Positions 5,238 through 38,180 of a DNA stretch of 39,391 bases are shown here, one piece after another (position 1 is the first letter of the stretch; every line of letters begins with the position of its first letter). The notes under the pieces are model-generated. The model saw only the letters and a program-made list of their open reading frames with translations. It ran no database searches and was not told the origin of the DNA. The stretch comes from a virus, in the IMG/VR virus record IMGVR_UViG_3300025141_000267, positions 1 to 39,391 of that record; one strand, given 5' to 3'. The position numbers and the translations under genes were made by a program.

Positions 5238-5251
5238 ATATTTATATATAG
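5238..5251 (+). promoter_or_regulatory. putative late promoter motif (variant)
   Basis: ATATTTATATATAG follows the gp15 stop and lies about 33 bases before the start at 5284. It matches the shared motif except that A replaces G at the end. Confidence 0.6.
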
Positions 5252-5600: not shown

Positions 5601-5615
5601 ATATTTATATATGAA
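5601..5615 (+). promoter_or_regulatory. putative late promoter motif
   Basis: ATATTTATATATGAA directly follows the terminator and is about 60 bases upstream of the sheath gene. Confidence 0.7.
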
Positions 5616-7571: not shown

Positions 7572-7586
7572 ATATTTATATATGAA
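7572..7586 (+). promoter_or_regulatory. putative late promoter motif
   Basis: ATATTTATATATGAA lies between the gp18 terminator and the tube gene, with TTAGGAGAAAAA as ribosome site further down. Confidence 0.7.
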
Positions 7587-8168: not shown

Positions 8169-8181
8169 ATATTTATATATG
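8169..8181 (+). promoter_or_regulatory. putative late promoter motif
   Basis: ATATTTATATATG lies only 9 bases before the preferred lysozyme start. The ATG inside the motif (8179-8181) creates a spurious upstream start codon. Confidence 0.6.
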
Positions 8182-9838: not shown

Positions 9839-9854
9839 GATATTTATATATGAA
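9839..9854 (+). promoter_or_regulatory. putative late promoter motif
   Basis: GATATTTATATATGAA is identical to the copies at 258 and 844. It precedes the 85-aa protein and tape-measure pair, with TTAGGAGA as ribosome site. Confidence 0.7.
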
Positions 9855-20001: not shown

Positions 20002-21279
20002 ATGTATTGTGTTATACCTATATTCAAAGATCCAAACTTACATCCATTACATAAAAACAATGGATTATCAGCCTTATGGTGTCAACCAGAATCTGCAGAA
20101 GAACCATTCTTTTTAATCCAACATCATCCTGATTCAGATAAAATGATGGAAGATTATAAGTGGTTAAATGATAAATTAATTCAAACACCTGATAAAAAAT
20201 TATTAAATCATTTCTATAAATTTAAAGATGTTGTGGATAAAAACTTTATATGGTGGATAGATACAGGTAAACCATTTGAGAATAATATTCGTAATAATGC
20301 AATAGATTTCTTGAGTAATAAGTTCTACAATGTTAAAAAACTTAATGAAATCATACCATTATCGAAACATAATGAGTATTGTAGTGAGGTTTATAGGGGA
20401 ATGGCTAGAGCATATGTTGGTGGAACTGATGACTATTATATGAATGATTTCACAGAAGCTTTCGGTTCAATTGAAAAAAATGGAGTAAAAGTATCCGATG
20501 ATGTATGTGATATATTTGATATGAGAGTAAAAAAACATATATCTAATGGTAAACTATATAGTAATTACAATCTATGGACAACAACAGGTCGTCCAAGTAA
20601 TTCATTTGGTTCTGTTAACTTTGCAGCTCTACCACCTGATAAACGAAAAGCTATAGTATCTGAAAATGACTATCTTGTGGAATATGATTATGATGCATAT
20701 CATTTAAGAATAATTGCATATTTAGTTGGATACCATACATTTGATGAAAATTCAGTTCACGAACATTTAGCTAAATGGTATGAGTGTTCATATCAAGAAT
20801 CAAAACAGAAATCATTTAAATTATTATATGGTGGAATTGATAAAGAAACACGAGAAAAAGTACCATTTTTTGATTTAACACATAAATTCATTAATGATAA
20901 ATGGAAAGAAATAAATAAGAATAAATACATTTTAACTGATATTTATAGACGGAGAATAATATTATCTAATTACGAAGATTTAAATAGGAATAAACTTTTT
21001 AATTATTTAATTCAAGCTATAGAAACAGAATTGAATGTTAGTAAGATTTTATTAATTCAAGACTATTTATCAGATAAGAATACAAAATTAGTTTTGTATG
21101 GATATGATAGTTTCTTATTTGACTTTTCTAAATCTGATGGAGTAGAAACTTTGAAAGAGATAAAAACGATATTAGAAACTAAAACTGATGTACCAGGTGA
21201 TAAAGAACCTTATTTTTATACCAAATCAAAAATGGGTTTAAACTATGGTGAAATGCAGGATATCACAAAGAGGTTATAA
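20002..21279 (+). CDS. small family-A DNA polymerase-like protein without exonuclease domain
   Basis: A 425-aa protein with the palm/fingers motifs of family-A polymerases. TTTGRPSNSFGSVNFAALP (193-211) matches the template-binding GR..S....N.QN.P region. Motif A is EYDYDAYHLRIIAYL, with catalytic Asp D229. The O-helix is SKQKSFKLLYGG, with K268, F272, Y276 and G277. The segment NYLIQAIETEL resembles the APMQG..AD helix. Motif C is LVLYGYDSFLFD, with D369. The first ~130 residues show no exonuclease motifs; E. coli Pol I is 928 aa. Odd points: His234 replaces the steric-gate Glu of motif A, the Arg four residues before the O-helix Lys is Tyr, and motif C has YDS instead of HDE. It has no ribosome site and probably a leaderless message. 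It may act in gap filling or lesion bypass beside gp43. Confidence 0.8.
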   Translation: MYCVIPIFKDPNLHPLHKNNGLSALWCQPESAEEPFFLIQHHPDSDKMMEDYKWLNDKLIQTPDKKLLNHFYKFKDVVDKNFIWWIDTGKPFENNIRNNAIDFLSNKFYNVKKLNEIIPLSKHNEYCSEVYRGMARAYVGGTDDYYMNDFTEAFGSIEKNGVKVSDDVCDIFDMRVKKHISNGKLYSNYNLWTTTGRPSNSFGSVNFAALPPDKRKAIVSENDYLVEYDYDAYHLRIIAYLVGYHTFDENSVHEHLAKWYECSYQESKQKSFKLLYGGIDKETREKVPFFDLTHKFINDKWKEINKNKYILTDIYRRRIILSNYEDLNRNKLFNYLIQAIETELNVSKILLIQDYLSDKNTKLVLYGYDSFLFDFSKSDGVETLKEIKTILETKTDVPGDKEPYFYTKSKMGLNYGEMQDITKRL

Positions 21280-22962
21280 ATGAAACATATTTCAGAAATC
21301 ATAGAAGAGATTTTAGTAGAATGGGCATATCGTGTTCACGATGGAATGCCTAATCCAAAAAATACACTACACATTCAAGAACTTCGTGAGTCAATGGAAG
21401 GATTAAATATTCCAAATGATATTATTTATAAAGTTATAAATAATATGATAAATGAAGAGGATGATTGGTGGGGTAAATTATCATCTGAAGAACAAGAAGA
21501 TTATATAAAAAAACATCCTAGAAGTAAAAAAGCAAAAGAAGCTAAAAAGAAAGAAAAAGAAGATGATAAACCAACTGATAAAAATATAAATCAAGACCAC
21601 GAAATAACAGACTCTCAACTTATGATGACAAAGACAAAAGCAAAAGAACAGGCTGCTAAAAAAGGTAGTAAAGATGTTGGTGCTGGAACACCCGAATCAA
21701 GAGCTGGTGAAGCTATGGTTCATAAAGGTTTAAGAATGTTACAAGAAGGTAAATCAGTTGAAGAAATTCAAAAATATTTTGATGAACTTGTTAATTCAGA
21801 TGACCACATACTGAATAGTAAAGAGGGCAAGAAGTGGGTTAAAGCATCAATATCAACTTTAAATCGTATAGATAAAGAAATTGGTATTAAGAATATAAAA
21901 AATGTATCTTGGGATACAAAAGTTGGAAGAGAAGCTATAGGTGTAGACCCAGATTTAGAAACTTCATCTGATATGTTTATACAAACAAATGATGGAAGTG
22001 TTATCGGGTTGTCTCTTAAAAAGTCAGGTGCTGTATTTTTAGCTAATAAAGGTTGGGCAAAAGAATCTAAAAAGTTATTAGAGGATTTAAAACCATCTAT
22101 GTCAGAGGAAGCTTTTAGTGAATTAGAAAAGTCAATGTCTATTAAATCATATAATGAAAGTTTAAATAAAAGGTATCAAACCATTACAAAAGATATGGAT
22201 TCAAATTCTATAAATAAGATGGTTGATAAATTATTAAAAGAAGATGATAAGTTAATATCAAAATACTTTGGTTCTGGTGAAAAGAGAGAAAAATATTTGG
22301 AAATATTAAGAAATCCAAAATTATTAGAAGATACAAAAAATGGAACATTAAGTGGTGACCAAAAGAAAGTTCTTGCAAAAATAACAGCTATTTACGACAA
22401 GGATAAATATAATCATTTGAGAGAAGTAGATTCAGAATTGACAACTAATACATTTAAAACTTTAAATAAACATCCAGAAGCTCAACAAGCTATGAAAAAA
22501 CATATAGTGAAGTCGATGCACATATCGGAAACATTAGGATTAAATAAAGAGATTACAGAAGGTGGTGTAAGTGGATTTATGACTTTATATGGTATTGAAC
22601 CTGATGGTGCTGTATTAAATGAAGAAAAATTGGTTGATTTATTTGGTTCTAAATTTGGAAGTGTATTAGCTGAAGTTAGAAATGGAACTATGACCATTGA
22701 TGATTTAGAGGAAGTGGTGATGGAATCAATAGATATGGATTATGAAACAGGTAATATATTATTTAAACATGAAAACAATAAAACATATCCTTTATTTTTT
22801 ATGAAAGCTAGAACAAGAGGAATAGGTTCAAGTCCAACTATGGAAATGGCTCAAACCAATTTGATGGCATTTGCTTTGAAATATGGGACATTTAATTCTA
22901 CTAAATGGCCCGAAGATGTTCAAGAAAAATTTAAAGATGCCATAAAAGAGATTCCAGAATAA
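21280..22962 (+). CDS. possible PD-(D/E)XK nuclease-fold protein next to the PolA-like gene
   Basis: A 560-aa protein. Residues 1-60 are helical. Residues ~67-90 carry LSSEEQEDYIKKHPRSKKA, a linker seen in several unrelated phage proteins, then a Lys/Glu-rich hinge. Residues ~138-255 hold the pattern ESRAGEAMVHKGLRM (helix with E143), then ETSSDMFIQTNDGS (D231), then VIGLSLKKSGA (K247/K248). This order, helix Glu, strand Asp, then x-Lys strand, is what PD-(D/E)XK nucleases show, but the usual Glu before Lys is Ser-Leu. Residues ~260-560 are mostly helical with no recognised domain. It starts one base after the polymerase-like gene, so the two are co-expressed. Possible repair nuclease partner; moderate to low confidence. 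Confidence 0.45.
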   Translation: MKHISEIIEEILVEWAYRVHDGMPNPKNTLHIQELRESMEGLNIPNDIIYKVINNMINEEDDWWGKLSSEEQEDYIKKHPRSKKAKEAKKKEKEDDKPTDKNINQDHEITDSQLMMTKTKAKEQAAKKGSKDVGAGTPESRAGEAMVHKGLRMLQEGKSVEEIQKYFDELVNSDDHILNSKEGKKWVKASISTLNRIDKEIGIKNIKNVSWDTKVGREAIGVDPDLETSSDMFIQTNDGSVIGLSLKKSGAVFLANKGWAKESKKLLEDLKPSMSEEAFSELEKSMSIKSYNESLNKRYQTITKDMDSNSINKMVDKLLKEDDKLISKYFGSGEKREKYLEILRNPKLLEDTKNGTLSGDQKKVLAKITAIYDKDKYNHLREVDSELTTNTFKTLNKHPEAQQAMKKHIVKSMHISETLGLNKEITEGGVSGFMTLYGIEPDGAVLNEEKLVDLFGSKFGSVLAEVRNGTMTIDDLEEVVMESIDMDYETGNILFKHENNKTYPLFFMKARTRGIGSSPTMEMAQTNLMAFALKYGTFNSTKWPEDVQEKFKDAIKEIPE

Positions 22963-23363
22963 TGAAATCACAACTACTATGTTCATTTACAACAAAAGAT
23001 AATCTTGATGAAATAGTCAAGAAGATAACTGATGTTTATAGTATTGTGTTTAATAAAGTATATGTATTACAAAATGAAAACAATGTAAATGAATTAATAT
23101 GTACTTATAATGTAGATACAAAAGGTGGTGTAGATTATAATAAAGTTGCAGGAACTATATCTTTACATAGAAAGAAATATTCAAATACATTATATACAAT
23201 AAATGCATTAAATGAATGTATAAAGAATTTAAACAATGGTGTTATGGACGCAAAGTTTATGGTGCCGTGGGAAAACTTTAAGAATATGTTACTTATAACA
23301 AATTCAGAAGGATTAAATAGAATAAATACGAGAATCTATAAGATAATAGATTTAGGAAAATAG
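22962..23363 (+). CDS. conserved-looking hypothetical protein
   Basis: A 133-aa protein with an alpha/beta look: KSQLLCSFTTKDNLDEIVKKI, a strand IVFNKVYVLQNEN, ELICTYNVD, then ISLHRKKYSNTLYTINALNE and a C-terminal INTRIYKIIDLGK. I recall similar TYNVD...HRKK.SNTLYTINALNE proteins in marine phage and cyanophage genomes, without known function. It overlaps the previous stop by one base (TAATG) and lies 13 bases before the thioredoxin-like gene. It is likely part of the early or middle replication operon. No catalytic residues are evident. Confidence 0.6.
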   Translation: MKSQLLCSFTTKDNLDEIVKKITDVYSIVFNKVYVLQNENNVNELICTYNVDTKGGVDYNKVAGTISLHRKKYSNTLYTINALNECIKNLNNGVMDAKFMVPWENFKNMLLITNSEGLNRINTRIYKIIDLGK

Positions 23364-23376
23364 AGAGGTTATAAAA

Positions 23377-23940
23377 ATGGCTAAAAAATCTAAAAAAGAA
23401 TCAACATTATATTATTTTTATTCTACTGGTTGTGCTTTTTGCAAAAAGATAGATCCAATAGTAGAAAAATTAAATGAAGAGGGTTATGATATTTTAAGAC
23501 TTGATTTAACTGATAAAGACAATCAAGGTTTAAAAAGAGAAATCGAAAACAAATATGATTTAAGATGTGGAACACCATGGCTTGTAGATGCAAGTAATGG
23601 TAATCATATATGTGGTTGGAGAGATGAAGACACAATTAAACAATGGGCGGATGGAAAAATAGTAGAAGAAACACCAAAACCAAAAACATCTCCACCACCA
23701 CCACCTTCAAATCTTGATGATGAAAAGATAGTTAATGATTGGAAAACAAAATATCAAAAATGGTTGAATGAAAATAATCATATGAATCAGTTACCAAATA
23801 CGGATGTTATGTTACAACAATTAAGAAAAAGAAAAGAAATGCTTGAAAGACAAAAAGTCGATAGAATTCCTGTCGATGAAAGAATCAATACATTGGAATT
23901 TAAAATTGATAAATTAATGAGACATCTTGGAGTAAAATGA
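23377..23940 (+). CDS. thioredoxin/glutaredoxin-fold protein with Pro linker and coiled-coil tail
   Basis: A 187-aa protein in two parts. Residues ~8-95 are a thioredoxin-type domain: LYYFYSTGCAFCKKIDPIV with redox pair C19/C22 (CAFC) and the cis-Pro turn GTPWLVDA (P67). A SPPPPPS linker (105-111) leads to a charged helical tail (~115-187: QQLRKRKEMLERQK) likely to bind a partner. The tail is not part of usual thioredoxins. It might reduce the phage ribonucleotide reductase encoded 6 kb downstream, as T4 thioredoxin does for T4 NrdAB; this is inference. Ribosome site is GAGAGGTTATAAAA. Its TGA overlaps the next ATG by 4 bases. Confidence 0.8.
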   Translation: MAKKSKKESTLYYFYSTGCAFCKKIDPIVEKLNEEGYDILRLDLTDKDNQGLKREIENKYDLRCGTPWLVDASNGNHICGWRDEDTIKQWADGKIVEETPKPKTSPPPPPSNLDDEKIVNDWKTKYQKWLNENNHMNQLPNTDVMLQQLRKRKEMLERQKVDRIPVDERINTLEFKIDKLMRHLGVK

Positions 23941-24446: not shown

Positions 24447-25214
24447 ATGGATATAAATGCAATCAAATCCAAACTCGCAACATTACAATCAACAAGTTCA
24501 AATAAAGATAACTTTTGGAAACCTGAACCAGGTAAACAAGTTGTTCGTATTGTTCCTTACAAACATAATAAAGATAACCCATTTATTGAGTTATTCTTTC
24601 ATTATAACTTAGGTAATAATAAAACTTACCTATCACCTGCATCATTTGGTCGTCCAGACCCAGTTCAAGAATTTTCTCAAAAACTAAAATCAACAGGTAA
24701 TAAAGATGAATGGATTCAAGGTAAAAGACTTGAACCTAAAATGAGAACTTTTGCACCTGTAATAGTTCGTGGCAGAGAATCTGAAGGTGTTAAGTTTTGG
24801 GGATTCGGTAAAACTGTATATCAAGAACTTCTTGGTGTAATTGCTGACCCTGATTATGGTGACATAACAGATGCTACTAATGGTAGAGATATTGGTATTG
24901 ATAGACAGACTCCTGCAGAGGCTGGAAATCAATATGGTAAAACTACTGTAAGAGTTAAACCAAATATGACTCCGATTACAGAAGATGCTGATTTATTAAA
25001 AAAAGTTTTTGATAATCAATCTAACTTGACAGAGTTGTATACAGAACCTACTTATGATGAGTTAAAAGAAGCTCTTCAAAATTATCTGAATCCTTCTGAT
25101 GAAACAGAAACTGCAGAATCAACTACAACTACAACTGAAAAAGTTGCAGAAAAAACTGAAACTGCAAAAACAGCAGATGTGTCAGATGCATTTGATGAGT
25201 TATTCAATACTTAA
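24447..25214 (+). CDS. 32: single-stranded DNA-binding protein gp32
   Basis: A 255-aa protein; T4 gp32 is 301 aa. The core (~25-180) matches gp32: NFWKPEPGKQVVRIVPYKHN, FIELFFHYNLGNNKTYLSP and VKFWGFGKTVYQELL. The linker at ~215-240 is Thr/Glu-rich, ending in an acidic tail DVSDAFDELFNT that in T4 recruits replication partners. The protein has no Cys, so the structural zinc site of T4 gp32 is absent. It coats single-stranded DNA in replication and recombination. It sits under a strong sigma70-like promoter with a folded leader, upstream of uvsX, its recombination partner. Confidence 0.93.
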   Translation: MDINAIKSKLATLQSTSSNKDNFWKPEPGKQVVRIVPYKHNKDNPFIELFFHYNLGNNKTYLSPASFGRPDPVQEFSQKLKSTGNKDEWIQGKRLEPKMRTFAPVIVRGRESEGVKFWGFGKTVYQELLGVIADPDYGDITDATNGRDIGIDRQTPAEAGNQYGKTTVRVKPNMTPITEDADLLKKVFDNQSNLTELYTEPTYDELKEALQNYLNPSDETETAESTTTTTEKVAEKTETAKTADVSDAFDELFNT

Positions 25215-25224
25215 TTAAATTAAT

Positions 25225-25305
25225 TTATGAGTGGGATGTATATTCTCACACAAGAAACTTTCCACAAGAATAAAAGTATTCTTAGCATCACTCTCCCACT
25301 CATAA
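25225..25305 (+). ncRNA. structured RNA element between gp32 and uvsX
   Basis: TTATGAGTGGGA (25225-25236) pairs perfectly with TCCCACTCATAA (25294-25305), a 12-bp closing stem. Inside, AAGAATA (25266-25272) pairs with TATTCTT (25277-25283), and TTCT/AGAA (25243-25246/25253-25256) gives a weaker third helix, so a three-way junction is possible. GTGGGA can alternatively pair with TTCCAC at 25260-25265. The uvsX ribosome site AGGAG follows at 25312. It looks like a cis-acting leader or mRNA processing element; no known RNA family recognised. Confidence 0.6.
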
Positions 25306-25322
25306 CATCATAGGAGAACAAT

Positions 25323-26441
25323 ATGTCAGAAAAAGACGAATTGGCTGGGATAATAGCCGATGAACTAAATAAACAGTTCAAACATCAACAAGTTGCTTAC
25401 TTTCTTGAAGAAGGTGGTAATCCTACTGATGTGACGGGTTGGATTTCAACTGGTTCAACGATGTTAGATTTAGCAATTGCTAATAAACCAAATGGTGGAG
25501 TTGCCGTAGGTAAAATCACTGAACTAAATGGTTTAGAAGGTAGTGGTAAATCTCTAATAGGTTCTCATCTATTAGCTTCAACACAAAAACAAGATGGTAT
25601 AGCGGTTTATATAGATACCGAATCAGCAGTATCTCAAGAATACTTGAGGGCTATTGGTGTGGATACAAGTAAAATGTTATATGTTCATCTTGAAACTTGT
25701 GAAGAAATATTTGATACCATTGAAACAATTGTTACTAAAATCAGAGAATCAAATAAAGACAAGTTAGTTACAATCTTGGTTGATTCATTAGCAGCTGCTT
25801 CTACTAAACAAGAAATGGATGCTGACTTTGATAAAGATGGTTGGGCAACAGCCAAAGCAATCATCATATCAAAAGCTATGAGAAAAGTAACACAGATGAT
25901 AGCACGACAAAAAGTTGCATTGGTTTTCACAAATCAATTACGACAAAAGTTGGGTGTAATGTTCGGAGACCCCTGGACTACAAGTGGTGGTAAGGCTCTT
26001 CCATTCCATTCATCAACTCGTGTTAGATTCAAAAATGCTGGACAAATCAAAGATGGTAATAAAGTTACTATTGGTATTAAAATCAAAGGACAAGTGATTA
26101 AAAATCGTCTCGGGCCTCCAATGAGGACTGTAGAGTTCCCACTTTACTTTGATAAAGGTATTGATGACTTTGGTAGTTGGTTAACTGTAATGAAAGAACA
26201 CAAACTTATAAAAGTTGGTGGTGCTTGGTATACATTACAACATTGTGATACTGAAACTGGTGAATTAATTAAAGAATACAAATTTTTATCTAAAGATTTT
26301 GAAAAACTTATGTTAGAAAATCAAGAGTTAAAAGATTATTGTTACGGATTAATCTGTGATGCTTGCATTCTGAAATATGATTCAAAAGAGTTAGGTATCG
26401 ATGATGTAACTGAAACTGAGGAGTCTGTGGATGAAATCTAA
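25323..26441 (+). CDS. uvsX: UvsX RecA-like recombinase
   Basis: A 372-aa protein; T4 UvsX is 391 aa. The ATPase core has Walker A GLEGSGKS (K76), the catalytic-Glu strand VAVYIDTESAVSQEYL, Walker B LVTILVDSLAA, and the DNA-binding loop region ALVFTNQLRQKLGVMFGDPW. It forms filaments on gp32-coated DNA and promotes strand exchange and recombination-dependent replication. The C-terminal acidic tail (DDVTETEESVDEI) is usual in this group. It follows the structured leader and has AGGAG before ATG. Its 3' end overlaps the FEN gene start by 11 bases. Confidence 0.95.
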   Translation: MSEKDELAGIIADELNKQFKHQQVAYFLEEGGNPTDVTGWISTGSTMLDLAIANKPNGGVAVGKITELNGLEGSGKSLIGSHLLASTQKQDGIAVYIDTESAVSQEYLRAIGVDTSKMLYVHLETCEEIFDTIETIVTKIRESNKDKLVTILVDSLAAASTKQEMDADFDKDGWATAKAIIISKAMRKVTQMIARQKVALVFTNQLRQKLGVMFGDPWTTSGGKALPFHSSTRVRFKNAGQIKDGNKVTIGIKIKGQVIKNRLGPPMRTVEFPLYFDKGIDDFGSWLTVMKEHKLIKVGGAWYTLQHCDTETGELIKEYKFLSKDFEKLMLENQELKDYCYGLICDACILKYDSKELGIDDVTETEESVDEI

Positions 26442-27495
26442 AAAAGACTTAAATGAAACATATTTATCTTTTTTAGACCAAACAAAAGATGATACACACA
26501 AAGTTGTAAATCATCTAAACGACAGAGTATTAATTGTGGATGGCTTGAATACATTTATTCGAGCCTTCGCAGTTAATCCTGCATTAAACGAAGACGGATT
26601 ACATATTGGTGGAATGATGGGTTTCTTAAAATCAGTTAGATATAGTTGTGATATACTAAAACCATCAAGGTGTATCATTGTGTTTGACGGAAAAGGTGGA
26701 AGTAAAAGAAGACAAAAGATATATCCAGAATACAAAGGCACTCGTAAAGTTAAACGAAGACTTAATCGTAATGTGGATTGGGGAACAGCTCCTCAAGACG
26801 AACAACATTCTATGAAACAACAAATGGGTAGGTTGATTGAGTATCTTGAACAACTACCTTTAACATTAGTTTCAATTGATGGAATAGAAGCAGACGATAC
26901 AATGGCTTATATATCTCAACAATTGTTACCAAAAAGTGATATAATATTAATGTCTACAGATAAAGACTTTATTCAATTAGTAGATGATAGAGTAAAAATA
27001 TGGAGTCCAACAAAAAAGAAACTTTATAACAAAAAAGCTGTATTTGAAGAATATGGGATACATTCTCACAATATTTTAACATACAGAATATTAGATGGAG
27101 ACAAATCTGATAATATAAACGGAATTAAAGGTGCAGGACTTAAAACCCTGAAAAAATTCTGCCCCCAATTTTCGGGTCAAGAAAAATTTACTGCAAAAGA
27201 TTTATTGGAATTTGCAGAAAAATCAGATTCTAAAATAAAGCTCTTGGAAAATATAAAAAAAAGTAGTAACTTAATAAAACGAAATTACTTATTAATGCAA
27301 TTAAATAATGTGGATATACCAAATCATACGAAGATGAAAATACAAGGAGCAGTAAATGGTAAAGTTCCACAATTGATTAAATATAGATTTCAAACAATGT
27401 TTTTAAAGGATAAATTACAATCAGCTATCAAAAACTTTGATAATTGGATTATGGAATTTACAAGATTAGATAGATTTAGAGGATTAAATGGCTGA
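26431..27495 (+). CDS. rnh: FEN-family 5' nuclease (RNase H, T4 Rnh-like)
   Basis: A 354-aa protein; T4 RNase H is 305 aa. It carries the acidic metal-site motifs of flap/5' nucleases in order: VLIVDGLNTFIRAF, CIIVFDGKGGSKRRQ, IDGIEADDTMAYI, ILMSTDKDFIQL, and the helix-3-turn-helix DNA-clamping segment DGDKSDNINGIKGAGLKTL. It removes RNA primers and flaps from lagging strands, acting with gp32 and gp43. The N-terminal ~30 residues precede the first motif and extend the T4 form. It overlaps uvsX and gp41, so the three are one operon. Confidence 0.88.
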   Translation: MKSKKDLNETYLSFLDQTKDDTHKVVNHLNDRVLIVDGLNTFIRAFAVNPALNEDGLHIGGMMGFLKSVRYSCDILKPSRCIIVFDGKGGSKRRQKIYPEYKGTRKVKRRLNRNVDWGTAPQDEQHSMKQQMGRLIEYLEQLPLTLVSIDGIEADDTMAYISQQLLPKSDIILMSTDKDFIQLVDDRVKIWSPTKKKLYNKKAVFEEYGIHSHNILTYRILDGDKSDNINGIKGAGLKTLKKFCPQFSGQEKFTAKDLLEFAEKSDSKIKLLENIKKSSNLIKRNYLLMQLNNVDIPNHTKMKIQGAVNGKVPQLIKYRFQTMFLKDKLQSAIKNFDNWIMEFTRLDRFRGLNG

Positions 27496-28843
27496 TAAGT
27501 TAACAGATTTTGGACATACATTTCAAGTAAAGTCAATTGCTAGTTTAATGACTAATCAAACTTTTCTTGAACAAATACATGATATACTTGATGAAAGTAA
27601 TTACGATAGTGATGGTTTAAAGTGGGTTGTTAAGGAATGTAAAAGTTATTTTGATGAATATAGAAAGTGTATAACACTTGATGTATTTAAAGTAAAGGTT
27701 AATGAAGTTGAGAATGATATATTGAAAACATCTATTGTTGAAAATCTTAAAGAGGTGTTTAGATATATGGAAGCACCTGATTTAGATTTCATACAAGATA
27801 AGTGTCTTGACTTTTTCAAAAATCAAACATTAAAAAGTGCTATTCTACAATCAGTTGAGATATTAGAAACTAAAGGTGACTATGAACAAATAAAAGTTAT
27901 TGTAGATGATGCTTTAAGAGCTGGTACTGAAAGAAACATAGGACACGAATACATTGAACACATTGAAGATAGGTATTCAGAAACCGCTAGAACAACAGTT
28001 CCAACTGGTTGGGATGTAATTGATGAACTAACTCAAGGTGGACTTGGTGGTGGAGAACTTGGTGTGATTGTAGCACCTGCGGGTGTTGGTAAAACTTGGG
28101 TGTTGGCTGCAATTGGTGCTAACTCAATGAAAAAAGGAAAACATATAGTTCATTATTCATTAGAGTTAAATGAGGCTTATGTAGGTTTAAGATACGATAG
28201 TATATTTACAGGTATTGCAAATCAGAATTTGAAATATCATAAAGATGATGTTCAAACTGAAATGGAAAAATTAAAAGGTGATTTGGTTATCAAATACTAT
28301 CCAACCAAAACTGCTAGTGTAAATACAATATCAGCTCATCTGAAAAGAATTATAAATCTTGGAACTGAAGTAGATATGGTAGTTGTGGATTATGCTGATA
28401 TATTGAAAGATACAGGTGGTTCAAGAGAAGTAAGACACGCACTTGGAAATATTTATGAAGATTTAAGAGGACTTGCTGGTGAATTTCAGATTCCAATATG
28501 GACAGCATCACAAGCTAATAGAAGTGCTCTTGACGAAGATGTGATTGAAGCTCAAAAGGTTTCAGAGTCATATCAAAAAGTGATGACGGCTGATTTCGTG
28601 ATGTCGTTATCGAGAAAAGTAGAAGATAAGATAGGTAACACGGGTAGATTCCATGTAATCAAAAATAGATTTGGTCCTGATGGTATTACTTATCCTGCTA
28701 AAGTAAATACTAACACAGGTATTATCAATATCTATGAGGGTAATTCTGTGGGTGGTAAAGAACAACAAGATAAAATAGACAATAGAGATAACTTAATGAA
28801 AAAAATGTTATCCAATAGATATGAGGATTTAATGAATGAATAA
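27488..28843 (+). CDS. 41: replicative DNA helicase gp41 (DnaB family)
   Basis: A 451-aa protein; T4 gp41 is 475 aa. The N-terminal domain (~1-150) is helical, as in DnaB-type helicases. The RecA-like motor has Walker A APAGVGKT (K202), an H1a-like ELGVIVAPAG run-in, Walker B VVVDYADIL, then IPIWTASQANRSA. It unwinds the fork as a hexamer and would work with a primase, which is not in this window. Its start overlaps the FEN gene (ATGGCTGATAA) and its stop overlaps the next small gene. Identity is secure. Confidence 0.92.
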   Translation: MADKLTDFGHTFQVKSIASLMTNQTFLEQIHDILDESNYDSDGLKWVVKECKSYFDEYRKCITLDVFKVKVNEVENDILKTSIVENLKEVFRYMEAPDLDFIQDKCLDFFKNQTLKSAILQSVEILETKGDYEQIKVIVDDALRAGTERNIGHEYIEHIEDRYSETARTTVPTGWDVIDELTQGGLGGGELGVIVAPAGVGKTWVLAAIGANSMKKGKHIVHYSLELNEAYVGLRYDSIFTGIANQNLKYHKDDVQTEMEKLKGDLVIKYYPTKTASVNTISAHLKRIINLGTEVDMVVVDYADILKDTGGSREVRHALGNIYEDLRGLAGEFQIPIWTASQANRSALDEDVIEAQKVSESYQKVMTADFVMSLSRKVEDKIGNTGRFHVIKNRFGPDGITYPAKVNTNTGIINIYEGNSVGGKEQQDKIDNRDNLMKKMLSNRYEDLMNE

Positions 28844-29132: not shown

Positions 29133-29265
29133 AAAATATATTTATGAATCACCAGATGGTGGCAAAACTATATATCGTAGAGAATTTGGAAATCATGAAA
29201 AAAAAGAAAAAATTTCGAGTGGTTATATAGAAATACCCGAAGATTATTGGGTATATGAAAGTTAG
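29119..29265 (+). CDS. small hypothetical protein (48 aa)
   Basis: A 48-aa protein from ATG 29119 (MPKNKKYIYESPDGGKTIYR), ending EIPEDYWVYES. An upstream in-frame ATG at 29071 lies deep inside the previous gene, in a frame of low-complexity sequence, so I take 29119. Sequence resembles short phage proteins with a 'KYIYESPDGGKTIYRR' pattern, of unknown function. It overlaps the previous gene by 14 bases and the Mom-like start by 11 bases. Confidence 0.55.
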   Translation: MPKNKKYIYESPDGGKTIYRREFGNHEKKEKISSGYIEIPEDYWVYES

Positions 29266-29890
29266 TGATTTTACAATAGAACCTGTTCACAAAAAGGCTG
29301 TTCAAGCTTTTATTGAGAAATGGCATTATTCACATTATGCTGGTGGTATACAACATAGGCAGTGTTTTGGGTTGTACTCTCCAGATGGTCCTTTTGGGTT
29401 ACCACGAATGATTGGTGCTATGATATATGGACAACCAGCAATGCCCGATACAGCAAAAAAATATCACCCTGATAACCCTTTAAGATGTTGGGAGTTACGA
29501 AGATTGTGTTGTATAGATGATACACCTACAAATACAGAGAGTTTTTTTATAGGTAAAACATTGAGATGGTTGAAACGGAATACAGATGCGGAGGTTATAA
29601 TATCTTATTCTGATTTACATCATGGTCATGAGGGAATTGTATATAAAGCTAGTAATTTTATAAATTTAGGACAATCACCTGCATCAAAAGTGTTAATGGT
29701 AGATGGTAGAGAGTTTCATGGTCGTTCGATGAACAATAAACACAGACCTTATGGTAGAGCATTAAAAAGAAGATGGGAAGCTAAAAAGGCTGGAGCAAAA
29801 GATGATGGTATATTTTATGTTGATAGAAAACCTAAGAACATTTATGTGTATTATTTGAATAAAAAAGTTAAGAAGAAAATGTTAAAGTGA
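29255..29890 (+). CDS. Mom-like DNA-modification protein (GNAT-fold)
   Basis: A 211-aa protein that matches the Mom family pattern: the aromatic N-terminal WHYSH (23-27), ELRRLCC (80-86), then IISYSDLHHGHEGIVYKASN (116-135) with N134 and F135, which resembles the SY.D..H.G.IY.A.NF core. In phage Mu, Mom attaches a methylcarbamoyl group to N6 of adenine and protects DNA from host restriction. The target modification here is not known. It is flanked by the 48-aa gene and, after a late-type motif, by the ribonucleotide reductase gene. Weak ribosome site (TTGGG); translation is probably coupled to the upstream gene. Confidence 0.7.
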   Translation: MKVSDFTIEPVHKKAVQAFIEKWHYSHYAGGIQHRQCFGLYSPDGPFGLPRMIGAMIYGQPAMPDTAKKYHPDNPLRCWELRRLCCIDDTPTNTESFFIGKTLRWLKRNTDAEVIISYSDLHHGHEGIVYKASNFINLGQSPASKVLMVDGREFHGRSMNNKHRPYGRALKRRWEAKKAGAKDDGIFYVDRKPKNIYVYYLNKKVKKKMLK

Positions 29891-29904
29891 TATTTATATA
29901 TGTT
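29889..29904 (+). promoter_or_regulatory. putative late promoter motif before the nrdJ operon
   Basis: GATATTTATATATGTT sits at the end of the Mom-like gene and 50 bases before the ribonucleotide reductase start, with AAGGAGAG as ribosome site. It is the only copy in this window that precedes metabolic rather than virion genes. Confidence 0.6.
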
Positions 29905-35654: not shown

Positions 35655-38180
35655 TTGTACCAAAACATCTATGTAAAACGAACAAAGACAAGTAGTGAAA
35701 TACACTTATGGGATGACAAAACAGGTTATTCTAAATTCCAATATAAACCATATGCTTACCTAAAATCACAAACAGGAACACATCGTTCCTTATATGGTGA
35801 TAAACTCAAGAAAGTAAACTTTTGGACTGGTGATGATTTACAGAATGGAAGAGTGTTTGAATCTGATGTGCCCATTGAAACGAGAACTCTTGTAGACATG
35901 TATTCAGATTCAGAAGAGCCATCAGTTGGACATCGTGAAGTTTACTTTGATATTGAGTGTGAGGTAACGGATGGTTTTCCTGATGCTAATCGTGCAGAAA
36001 ACAAAATTACAGCAATAGCTCTTTATGATAAAACAATGGATAAATATTCTTGTTTTGTTTTAGGTGATGTTCCAAATACAGATGTTGTTGAGTCCTTTCA
36101 ATCAGAAGAAGAATTACTACAAAGATTTTATCAAAAATATCTTGAAATCAATCCAACAATATTAAGTGGTTGGAACATTGATGGATTTGATATCCCTTAT
36201 TTATATAATAGAACTAAAAGAATTATGGGAGATAGTTTTGCAAATTCTTTATCACCAATCGGTGAAGTATTTTATTCAGAACACAAAAAAAGATACAAGA
36301 TAGCTGGTGTATCGTGTCTCGATTATATGAGATTATATAAATGGTTTACATATACACAACAATCATCATACAGATTAGATTTCATAGGACAACTTGAAGT
36401 TGGTATTGGTAAGATTGAATATGAAGGAACACTACAAGATTTATATGAAACTGATATCAACAAGTATATTGAATATAACTTGAATGATGTCAAGATTGTA
36501 AAGGCTCTTGATGATAAGTTAAAGTTTATTGATTTGGCTCGTGGTGTAAGTCATTTAGGTCATACACCTTACGAAGATGTATTCTTCAGTAGTAGATATT
36601 TGGAAGGTGCTATTCTTGTTTATCTTAAAAACATTGGAGTTGTTGCACCTAATAAAGCTTTAGATGCTAGATCTAAGATGAATCGTAGTGATGACGATAA
36701 ATTTACTGGTGCGTATGTCAAAGACCCAAAACCAGGTAGATATGAGTGGGTGTTTGATTTGGATTTAACTTCAATGTATCCTTCAACAATTATGACTTTG
36801 AATATATCACCAGAAACAAAACTTGGTAAAGTGAATGGTTGGGATGCTGAAGAATTTATCAAGGGTGTGAGTAAAACTTATTCACTTGAGAAGAATGGTA
36901 AAACTCAAGGACATATGAATAATGAAGAATTGGATAGTATGTTTAAATCTAATAAAGTATCTATATCTTCAAATGGTATTATGTATCGTAATGATAAAAA
37001 AGGTTTGATACCTTCATTGTTAGAGAAGTGGTTTGATGAAAGAGTTGAGTATAAAAGATTAATGAAGAAATATGGTGAAGAAAAAAATGATGATAAACAT
37101 GGGTATTTTAAGAGAAGACAACACATTCAAAAGATTATTTTAAATTCACTTTATGGTGTATTAGGATTACCTGTGTTTAGATTTTATGATGTAGATAACG
37201 CTGAAGCTACAACTGTAACTGGACAAGAATTAATAAAATTTACAGAGAGAATAACCAATAAATATTATAATAACAAACTTGATGATAAAGAAGATTATTG
37301 TATTTATACTGATACAGATTCTGTATTTTATTCGGCTATTCCATTAATTAAAAAAGACTACCCCAATGCTGACTTAGGCGATGACAAATTTATGACAGAG
37401 AAGATATTAGAAACAGCAAAGATTGTTCAGGATTTCATCAACAATTCTTACAATCTATTTGCTAAAAAGTTTCTAAATTGTGATACGCACAGATTTGACA
37501 TCAAACAGGAGTGTGTGGCCAAGTCAGCGTTTTGGGTTACGAAGAAAAGATATGGACAACAGATTATCAATGATGGTGGTGTACCTTGTGATAGACTTGA
37601 TGTAAAAGGTTTAGATATTGTGAGGAGTAATTTTCCTGTGGCTATGAGGAAATTGATGACACAAGTATTGAAAGATATTTTAGGTAATGTAGATAAAGAT
37701 GAGATTGATGAAAAGATAGTAGAATTTAAAAAGCTGATGAAAAAAGTTGATATTCAAGATATTGCTCTTCCAACTGGTGTTAAGAGATTAAGTAAGTTTG
37801 CAGATAAAAGACATAGTAATAGAAAAATATATGGTGAAGGTAGTATTTTTACACAGATGTATAAGGGAACGCCTGTTCATGTTAAAGCTGCTTGGATATA
37901 CAATGATTTGTTGAAGTATTGGAATTTAGGAAATTCTGAAAAAATCAAATCATCAGAAAAGATTAAATGGGTTTATTTAAAACCAAATACAATGAATGTA
38001 AAACAAATTGGTTTTAAAGGTTATGATGACCCACCAAAGATTATGGAGTTCATAAAACAAAATGTGGATTATGATAAATTATTTGAAAGAGCATTAGAGA
38101 AGAAAATAAGAATGTTTTATGAGGCATTGAAATGGGATATGCCTGTTGATAAAGCAAATACATTAGATAGATTTTTTTAA
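35655..38180 (+). CDS. 43: DNA polymerase gp43 (family B)
   Basis: An 841-aa protein; T4 gp43 is 898 aa. Proofreading exonuclease motif is YFDIECEV (D99, E101). Polymerase motifs are DLDLTSMYPSTI (catalytic D370), KIILNSLYGVLG and YTDTDSVF (D553/D555). It is the replicative polymerase that works with gp45 and gp44. The gene starts with TTG 35655 right after the previous stop, with AAGGAAAT as ribosome site; no in-frame ATG is close enough. The N-terminus YQNIYVKRTKTSSEIHLW is the usual first strand. It is followed by a promoter and the clamp gene. Confidence 0.96.
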   Translation: MYQNIYVKRTKTSSEIHLWDDKTGYSKFQYKPYAYLKSQTGTHRSLYGDKLKKVNFWTGDDLQNGRVFESDVPIETRTLVDMYSDSEEPSVGHREVYFDIECEVTDGFPDANRAENKITAIALYDKTMDKYSCFVLGDVPNTDVVESFQSEEELLQRFYQKYLEINPTILSGWNIDGFDIPYLYNRTKRIMGDSFANSLSPIGEVFYSEHKKRYKIAGVSCLDYMRLYKWFTYTQQSSYRLDFIGQLEVGIGKIEYEGTLQDLYETDINKYIEYNLNDVKIVKALDDKLKFIDLARGVSHLGHTPYEDVFFSSRYLEGAILVYLKNIGVVAPNKALDARSKMNRSDDDKFTGAYVKDPKPGRYEWVFDLDLTSMYPSTIMTLNISPETKLGKVNGWDAEEFIKGVSKTYSLEKNGKTQGHMNNEELDSMFKSNKVSISSNGIMYRNDKKGLIPSLLEKWFDERVEYKRLMKKYGEEKNDDKHGYFKRRQHIQKIILNSLYGVLGLPVFRFYDVDNAEATTVTGQELIKFTERITNKYYNNKLDDKEDYCIYTDTDSVFYSAIPLIKKDYPNADLGDDKFMTEKILETAKIVQDFINNSYNLFAKKFLNCDTHRFDIKQECVAKSAFWVTKKRYGQQIINDGGVPCDRLDVKGLDIVRSNFPVAMRKLMTQVLKDILGNVDKDEIDEKIVEFKKLMKKVDIQDIALPTGVKRLSKFADKRHSNRKIYGEGSIFTQMYKGTPVHVKAAWIYNDLLKYWNLGNSEKIKSSEKIKWVYLKPNTMNVKQIGFKGYDDPPKIMEFIKQNVDYDKLFERALEKKIRMFYEALKWDMPVDKANTLDRFF

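Follow-up and report, generated by a model that had tools for sequence, protein, structure and literature searches.

The stretch of viral DNA analysed here (39,391 nucleotides, positions 1 to 39,391 of IMG/VR record IMGVR_UViG_3300025141_000267; hereafter the window) raises the question of what a phage with a gp43-type family-B DNA polymerase would do with a second, short polymerase gene of another family. The original prediction, read from the DNA letters, had placed such a gene, encoding a family-A polymerase-like protein of 425 aa, at 20002-21279 on the + strand. Neither the family nor its status as an extra polymerase turns out to be novel: a divergent PolA, divPolA1, was described in 14 phages, each of which has a regular PolA, PolB or PolC as well (Yutin et al. 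2024, PMC11348598). The published proteins have a truncated thumb, an inactivated exonuclease and replication genes downstream (PMC11348598), and their prototype is gp001 of Flavobacterium phage immuto (Virol J 21:200, PMC11348598). The gene at 20002-21279 is a new member of this family. In the literature searched, the name divPolA1 occurred only in PMC11348598 and its preprint, and the text of PMC11348598 mentions neither the steric gate nor ribonucleotides. What we add is a fixed unusual active site, a putative partner gene, W133, and a broader survey of the family.

A second polymerase gene with a family-A fold

The open reading frame, from an ATG at 20002 to a TAA at 21277-21279, is as predicted, and a dN/dS of about 0.11-0.15, measured against close relatives, indicates purifying selection on the gene. 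Searched as a single sequence, the protein matched Pfam DNA_pol_A with E=1.2e-5 and 24.9 bits, under the curated Pfam cut-off of 34.3 bits; 28 of 63 relatives match the same model at E<=0.01. The protein searched alone had no match in PHROGs. A phmmer search against PDB sequences returned only E>0.2, so that a profile was needed for the comparison with Klenow. Our family profile and alignment comprise 63 relatives, collected with seed patterns that contained motif A and motif C. The profile matched Klenow with E=2.8e-4 and the catalytic residues aligned. An AlphaFold2 model built on the 63-sequence alignment (mean pLDDT 91, pTM 0.90) shows the palm/fingers fold, and Foldseek matched it to Pol I structures in the PDB with E=6e-16 to 1e-13 (TM 0.57-0.67 by query length in the top 50; 12-14% identity to Pol I). 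Within the palm and fingers (residues 181-425) lie 38 of the 46 near-invariant alignment columns. Profile, model and Foldseek thus agree with the original prediction on a family-A polymerase-type protein, having the PolA fold and both catalytic Asp; with the synteny described below, the assignment is well above chance.

The closest described proteins are distant. The polymerase is 33% identical to immuto gp001 over 91% of its length (tblastn, E=2e-53), 38% identical over 63% of its length to its relative in a 484-kb phage (LR756508) and 31% identical to that of Microcystis phage Mel-JY01. Relatives are few among phage records (the Flavobacterium immuto phages, LR756508 and Mel-JY01), and were found in at least 582 IMG/VR stretches, compared with 14 published genomes. 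The features of the locus are collected in Table 1.

Table 1. Features of the polymerase locus and of the rest of the window.
Feature	Position	Strand	Basis or remark
divPolA1-type family-A DNA polymerase, 425 aa	20002-21279	+	ORF, Pfam, homologues, AF2/Foldseek, PMC11348598
Reduced 3'-5' exonuclease-like domain, residues 1-118, no D-x-E motif I	20002-20355	+	limits inferred
Short thumb-like segment, residues 119-180	20356-20541	+	model helices; limits inferred from position before TGR motif
Palm and fingers, residues 181-425	20542-21276	+	near-invariant columns, Klenow alignment
Motif A, D229-YDAY-H234 (H at E710 steric-gate position)	20686-20703	+	
O-helix, Y264...K268...F272...Y276-G277 (Tyr at R754 position)	20791-20832	+	
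Motif C, Y368-D369-S370 (HDE in Pol I)	21103-21111	+	
560-aa protein, begins right after polymerase stop	21280-22962	+	
W133, 133 aa, conserved genomic partner of polymerase	22962-23363	+	
Thioredoxin-fold protein, 187 aa, close relatives only	23377-23940	+	
gp32-like single-strand binding protein	24447-25214	+	
RecA/UvsX recombinase	25323-26441	+	
Separate 5'-3' exonuclease (FEN/T4 RNase H type)	26431-27495	+	
DnaB/gp41-type helicase	27488-28843	+	
gp43-type family-B DNA polymerase (regular polymerase)	35655-38180	+	Pfam, PHROG
TATTTATA	846-853, 5239-5246, 5602-5609, 7573-7580, 8170-8177, 9841-9848, 29891-29898	+	

Three unusual positions in a conserved active site

D229, H234, K268, F272, Y276, G277, Y368, D369 and S370 all stand where the original prediction had put them, and the template-binding sequence it had described is found as T-G-R-P-S-N...N-F at residues 195-207. 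The profile aligns D229 with D705, H234 with E710, H253 with H734, K268 with K758, F272 with F762, Y276 with Y766 and D369 with D882, in Klenow numbering; Y264, counted by its offset from K268, falls at the position of R754. The protein has in common with Pol I/Klenow the palm, the fingers, the TGR motif, the Lys, Phe and Tyr of the O-helix, the Asp of motifs A and C and the C-terminal strand. Unlike Pol I, it has His for E710, Tyr for R754, YDS for HDE, and an apparently reduced exonuclease domain and thumb. The original prediction did not mention that the Arg of the O-helix (R754) is lost.

Both catalytic Asp and the equivalents of K758, F762, Y766, N845 and Q849 are invariant in the 63 relatives. 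Among 40 sequences less than 70% mutually identical, D229, H234, H253, Y264, K268, F272, Y276, K331, N334, Q338, Y368 and D369 do not vary. The conservation of H234 and Y-D-S in the 63-sequence alignment is biased, the seed patterns having held motifs A and C, and it was therefore re-tested on 20 relatives reached solely through W133. In these, D229, H234 and K268 were found in 19/19, and F272, Y276, N334, Q338, Y368 and D369 in 20/20. Position 370 was Ser or Ala, giving Y-D-S/A in all 20, and position 253 was His in 15 and Tyr in 4. The residue at position 264 was Tyr in 11 of 19, Val in 4 and Glu in 4, and never Arg, which rules out Tyr264 as a general residue of the family. The His gate and the altered motif C that had been noted in one protein are thus family-wide, the latter as Y-D-S/A; being kept in the relatives found through W133, both changes hold generally, as does the loss of the O-helix Arg. 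The full-length PolA of immuto (gp199) has a Glu gate, R...K in its O-helix, a motif C of HDQ and the DTE motif of the exonuclease, so the odd residues are a property of the divPolA1 gene rather than of immuto polymerases generally.

Loss of the O-helix Arg, of the motif C Glu or of the Glu gate is expected to alter or lower classical Pol I activity, and since three such residues have been lost, the polymerase could be weak or specialised. Taken further, the three positions unlike those of classical Pol I enzymes might point to a protein that has lost catalysis and serves the replication block as a scaffold or by binding DNA; we consider this very unlikely, as the catalytic Asp pair does not vary, nor do the Lys, Tyr, Phe, Asn and Gln, and their conservation far exceeds that elsewhere in the protein. 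Sugar selection may be altered; the His at the gate, being bulky, may still act as one.

An apparently reduced N-terminal domain and thumb

The protein had been described as lacking an obvious exonuclease domain. This holds for the D-x-E motif, which is missing, D10-P-N standing in its place after strand 1; it seems not to hold for the domain as a whole, since the N-terminal 118 or so residues look like a reduced exonuclease-like domain. In the AlphaFold2 model, residues 1-118 form short strands and helices that resemble a shrunken exonuclease domain, and about 60 residues lie between this part and the TGR region, as read from the model and not from a superposition. D10 (31/40) and D64 (32/40) are conserved at possible exonuclease motif positions, a placement made without residue-level superposition. 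D10, H14, H42, D64, K66 and D79 are each conserved in 31-39 of the 40 polymerases, within a supposedly dead domain. Such a pattern would fit an exonuclease that has lost its activity and been reused for binding; the domain may instead have some partial or different activity.

The missing proofreading motif, the replacement of R754 in the O-helix by Tyr, Val or Glu, and the proximity of RecA/UvsX would all suit a polymerase for damage bypass, tolerant of lesions or mismatches. However, no Pol theta-like loops or insertions were identified in divPolA1, and we regard this role as quite improbable.

Two other short or phage-borne family-A enzymes offer a comparison. The exonuclease of T7 gp5 DNA polymerase is active. 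Its motif A and O-helix align with the window polymerase by position (hhalign E=0.62, not significant) and, unlike the latter, it keeps Glu in motif A. The divPolA2 of barbaviruses and their relatives (AUR84708) is likewise a short extra PolA-type protein beside PolB; as read from its sequence, motif A is DFKAFE and motif C FDE, with Glu kept at both. Its N-terminal domain has been described as unrelated (PMC11348598), and hhalign of our profile against the single divPolA2 sequence gave no meaningful alignment. Overall, hhalign of the family profile against the single sequences of T7 gp5, divPolA2 and the full-length immuto PolA was uninformative (E about 0.08-0.6).

A regular polymerase is encoded alongside divPolA1

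The presence of gp43 beside the second polymerase is borne out by Pfam DNA_pol_B (E=3.6e-35) and PHROG 262 (E=9e-191) matches at 35655-38180. The protein is full length, with its exonuclease domain, and its closest known relative is in Mel-JY01 (47-49%), followed by those of cyanophages (31-34%). A regular polymerase was found in 8/8 checked records of at least 60 kb that carry divPolA1: PolB in Mel-JY01, LR756508 and the records G001, G002, G003, G017 and G018, and full-length PolA in immuto. PolB was present on shorter divPolA1 contigs too (the window, G012, G021 and G022), PolC on one of 50 kb, and one MAG had a full-length PolA on a contig other than that of divPolA1. The published A/B/C pattern of regular polymerases is therefore repeated on independent data. 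In the 484-kb phage, PolB is spread over two long ORFs of 1022 and 625 aa (LR756508.1, 260623-266900; L034-L036); an inserted element may have interrupted it.

Four of the eight records (immuto, Mel-JY01, LR756508 and G017) encode a DnaG-type primase, and priming need not, therefore, be the job of divPolA1. In the other four none was found with the query used, which may be explained by fragments or by a more divergent primase. These primases bear on the idea that divPolA1 uses ribonucleotides or mixed sugars, as a primase-like or primer-extending enzyme. Motif C is H-D-S in T7-type RNA polymerases, which Y-D-S loosely resembles, and the steric-gate Glu is His in every relative. Yet a bulky His may remain a gate, the TGR motif and the Phe at 762 are typical of DNA polymerases and, where DnaG is present, primer synthesis is separately encoded; we hold such an activity to be rather unlikely.

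divPolA1 heads a conserved replication block

In loci long enough to be read, T4-like baseplate and tail genes are followed by divPolA1, a protein of variable length, W133 and, optionally, thioredoxin and 128-aa proteins; the block continues with gp32, RecA/UvsX, the 5'-3' exonuclease, the helicase and, often, ribonucleotide reductase. The window has gp32, RecA, 5'-3' exonuclease and DnaB downstream, at 24447-28843. This order is kept both in relatives 77-95% identical and in those 30-40% identical, which include immuto, Mel-JY01 and the 484-kb phage. The next gene starts immediately after the divPolA1 stop codon, and there are overlaps of a few bases between further genes. The protein between divPolA1 and W133 has a similar N-terminus across loci (AYRV.DGMP..KN), and is 560 aa long here and 1434 aa in locus L176 (269-4573). 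The T7 polymerase uses thioredoxin as its processivity factor; the thioredoxin-fold gene of the window had no match at this position in distant relatives. In the Mel-JY01 record (PP395634.1; L029, 25078-26118 and 19683-20909), the gene named 'DNA polymerase I' is, by its position, probably the 5'-3' exonuclease of the block, and the real PolA-like gene is labelled hypothetical.

The window polymerase resembles immuto gp001 in its position before SSB, RecA, 5'-3' exonuclease and helicase, in being extra to a regular polymerase, in its kept catalytic Asp and, apparently, in the loss of the exonuclease motif. It differs in host and phage group, in having gp43 (PolB) rather than a full-length PolA as the regular polymerase, and in the additional 560-aa and thioredoxin genes of its block. 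Bacterial Pol I has the 5'-3' exonuclease as a domain of its own, whereas the window phage has a separate gene in the same block.

The setting of divPolA1 in a conserved replication block, with the regular polymerases in variable contexts and switching family (A, B or C) among relatives while divPolA1 stays, could mean that divPolA1 is the main or a co-replicative polymerase, for example on the lagging strand, and the regular polymerase the lesser one. We think this unlikely, given a protein with what looks like a short thumb and neither a proofreading motif nor a known processivity factor, in phages of at least 150 kb, and a gp43 in the window that is full length with its exonuclease domain. 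Since the authors of the family description judge the link to replication genes to be clearer for divPolA1 than for the regular polymerases (PMC11348598), divPolA1 may have a larger share in replication.

W133, a small protein linked to divPolA1

The linkage of W133 to the polymerase is a second point absent from the original prediction. W133 proteins range from 131 to 152 aa across loci, and divPolA1 is present in 32 of 33 W133 loci with more than 3.5 kb upstream. The remaining candidate for a W133 gene without the polymerase, L176, was rejected: its contig begins just before the neighbouring gene, unusually long there, and the polymerase site is cut off, so it is no counter-example. The phage records with W133 are the same six as those with divPolA1, and no others. 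The predicted model of W133 has a pLDDT of 93.5, and Foldseek found nothing for it below E=0.016. The suspicion that it might be UvsY was not supported, as neither Pfam nor PHROGs matched it consistently. We infer that W133 is a dedicated partner of divPolA1. It is conceivable, if improbable, that the two form a two-subunit polymerase of large T4-related phages, in which W133 and the fixed active-site changes would alter how the nucleotide is held, for instance tolerating ribonucleotides or modified nucleotides, for synthesis in recombination or primer removal.

Other features of the window

Seven genes, chiefly those of the tail but also the ribonucleotide reductase, have TATTTATA just upstream on the + strand, usually followed by TATGAA or similar; it is possibly a late-promoter element of the phage and, within the window, is not present before the divPolA1 gene. 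A Mom-like DNA modification gene is found at 29255-29890 (PHROG 1384, E=4e-52).

A proposed accessory role

We lean towards divPolA1 being an accessory polymerase that fills gaps after primer removal and/or serves recombination synthesis, with gp43 doing the bulk of replication. It would be a small family-A polymerase with a short thumb and a reduced, probably inactive proofreading domain, predicted to synthesise DNA without proofreading, at the head of a block running divPolA1, W133, gp32, RecA/UvsX, 5'-3' exonuclease and gp41 helicase. The neighbouring 5'-3' exonuclease would remove RNA primers and divPolA1 would fill the short gaps left; and/or divPolA1 would extend recombination intermediates made by UvsX and gp32. 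Bulk replication would fall to gp43, or to the regular PolA or PolC in relatives. Such an arrangement would be a phage version of the division of labour between the polymerase and 5' nuclease of Pol I, split over two genes. Roles in primer removal, recombination and lesion bypass are not distinguishable by sequence.

divPolA1 occurs far more widely than its 14 published genomes would lead one to expect, and large phages with two DNA polymerases of different origin are a natural test of the need for a second. With three normally critical positions changed around a fixed core, divPolA1 could teach us about sugar choice and triphosphate binding in family A, and W133 is a concrete candidate for a replication partner.
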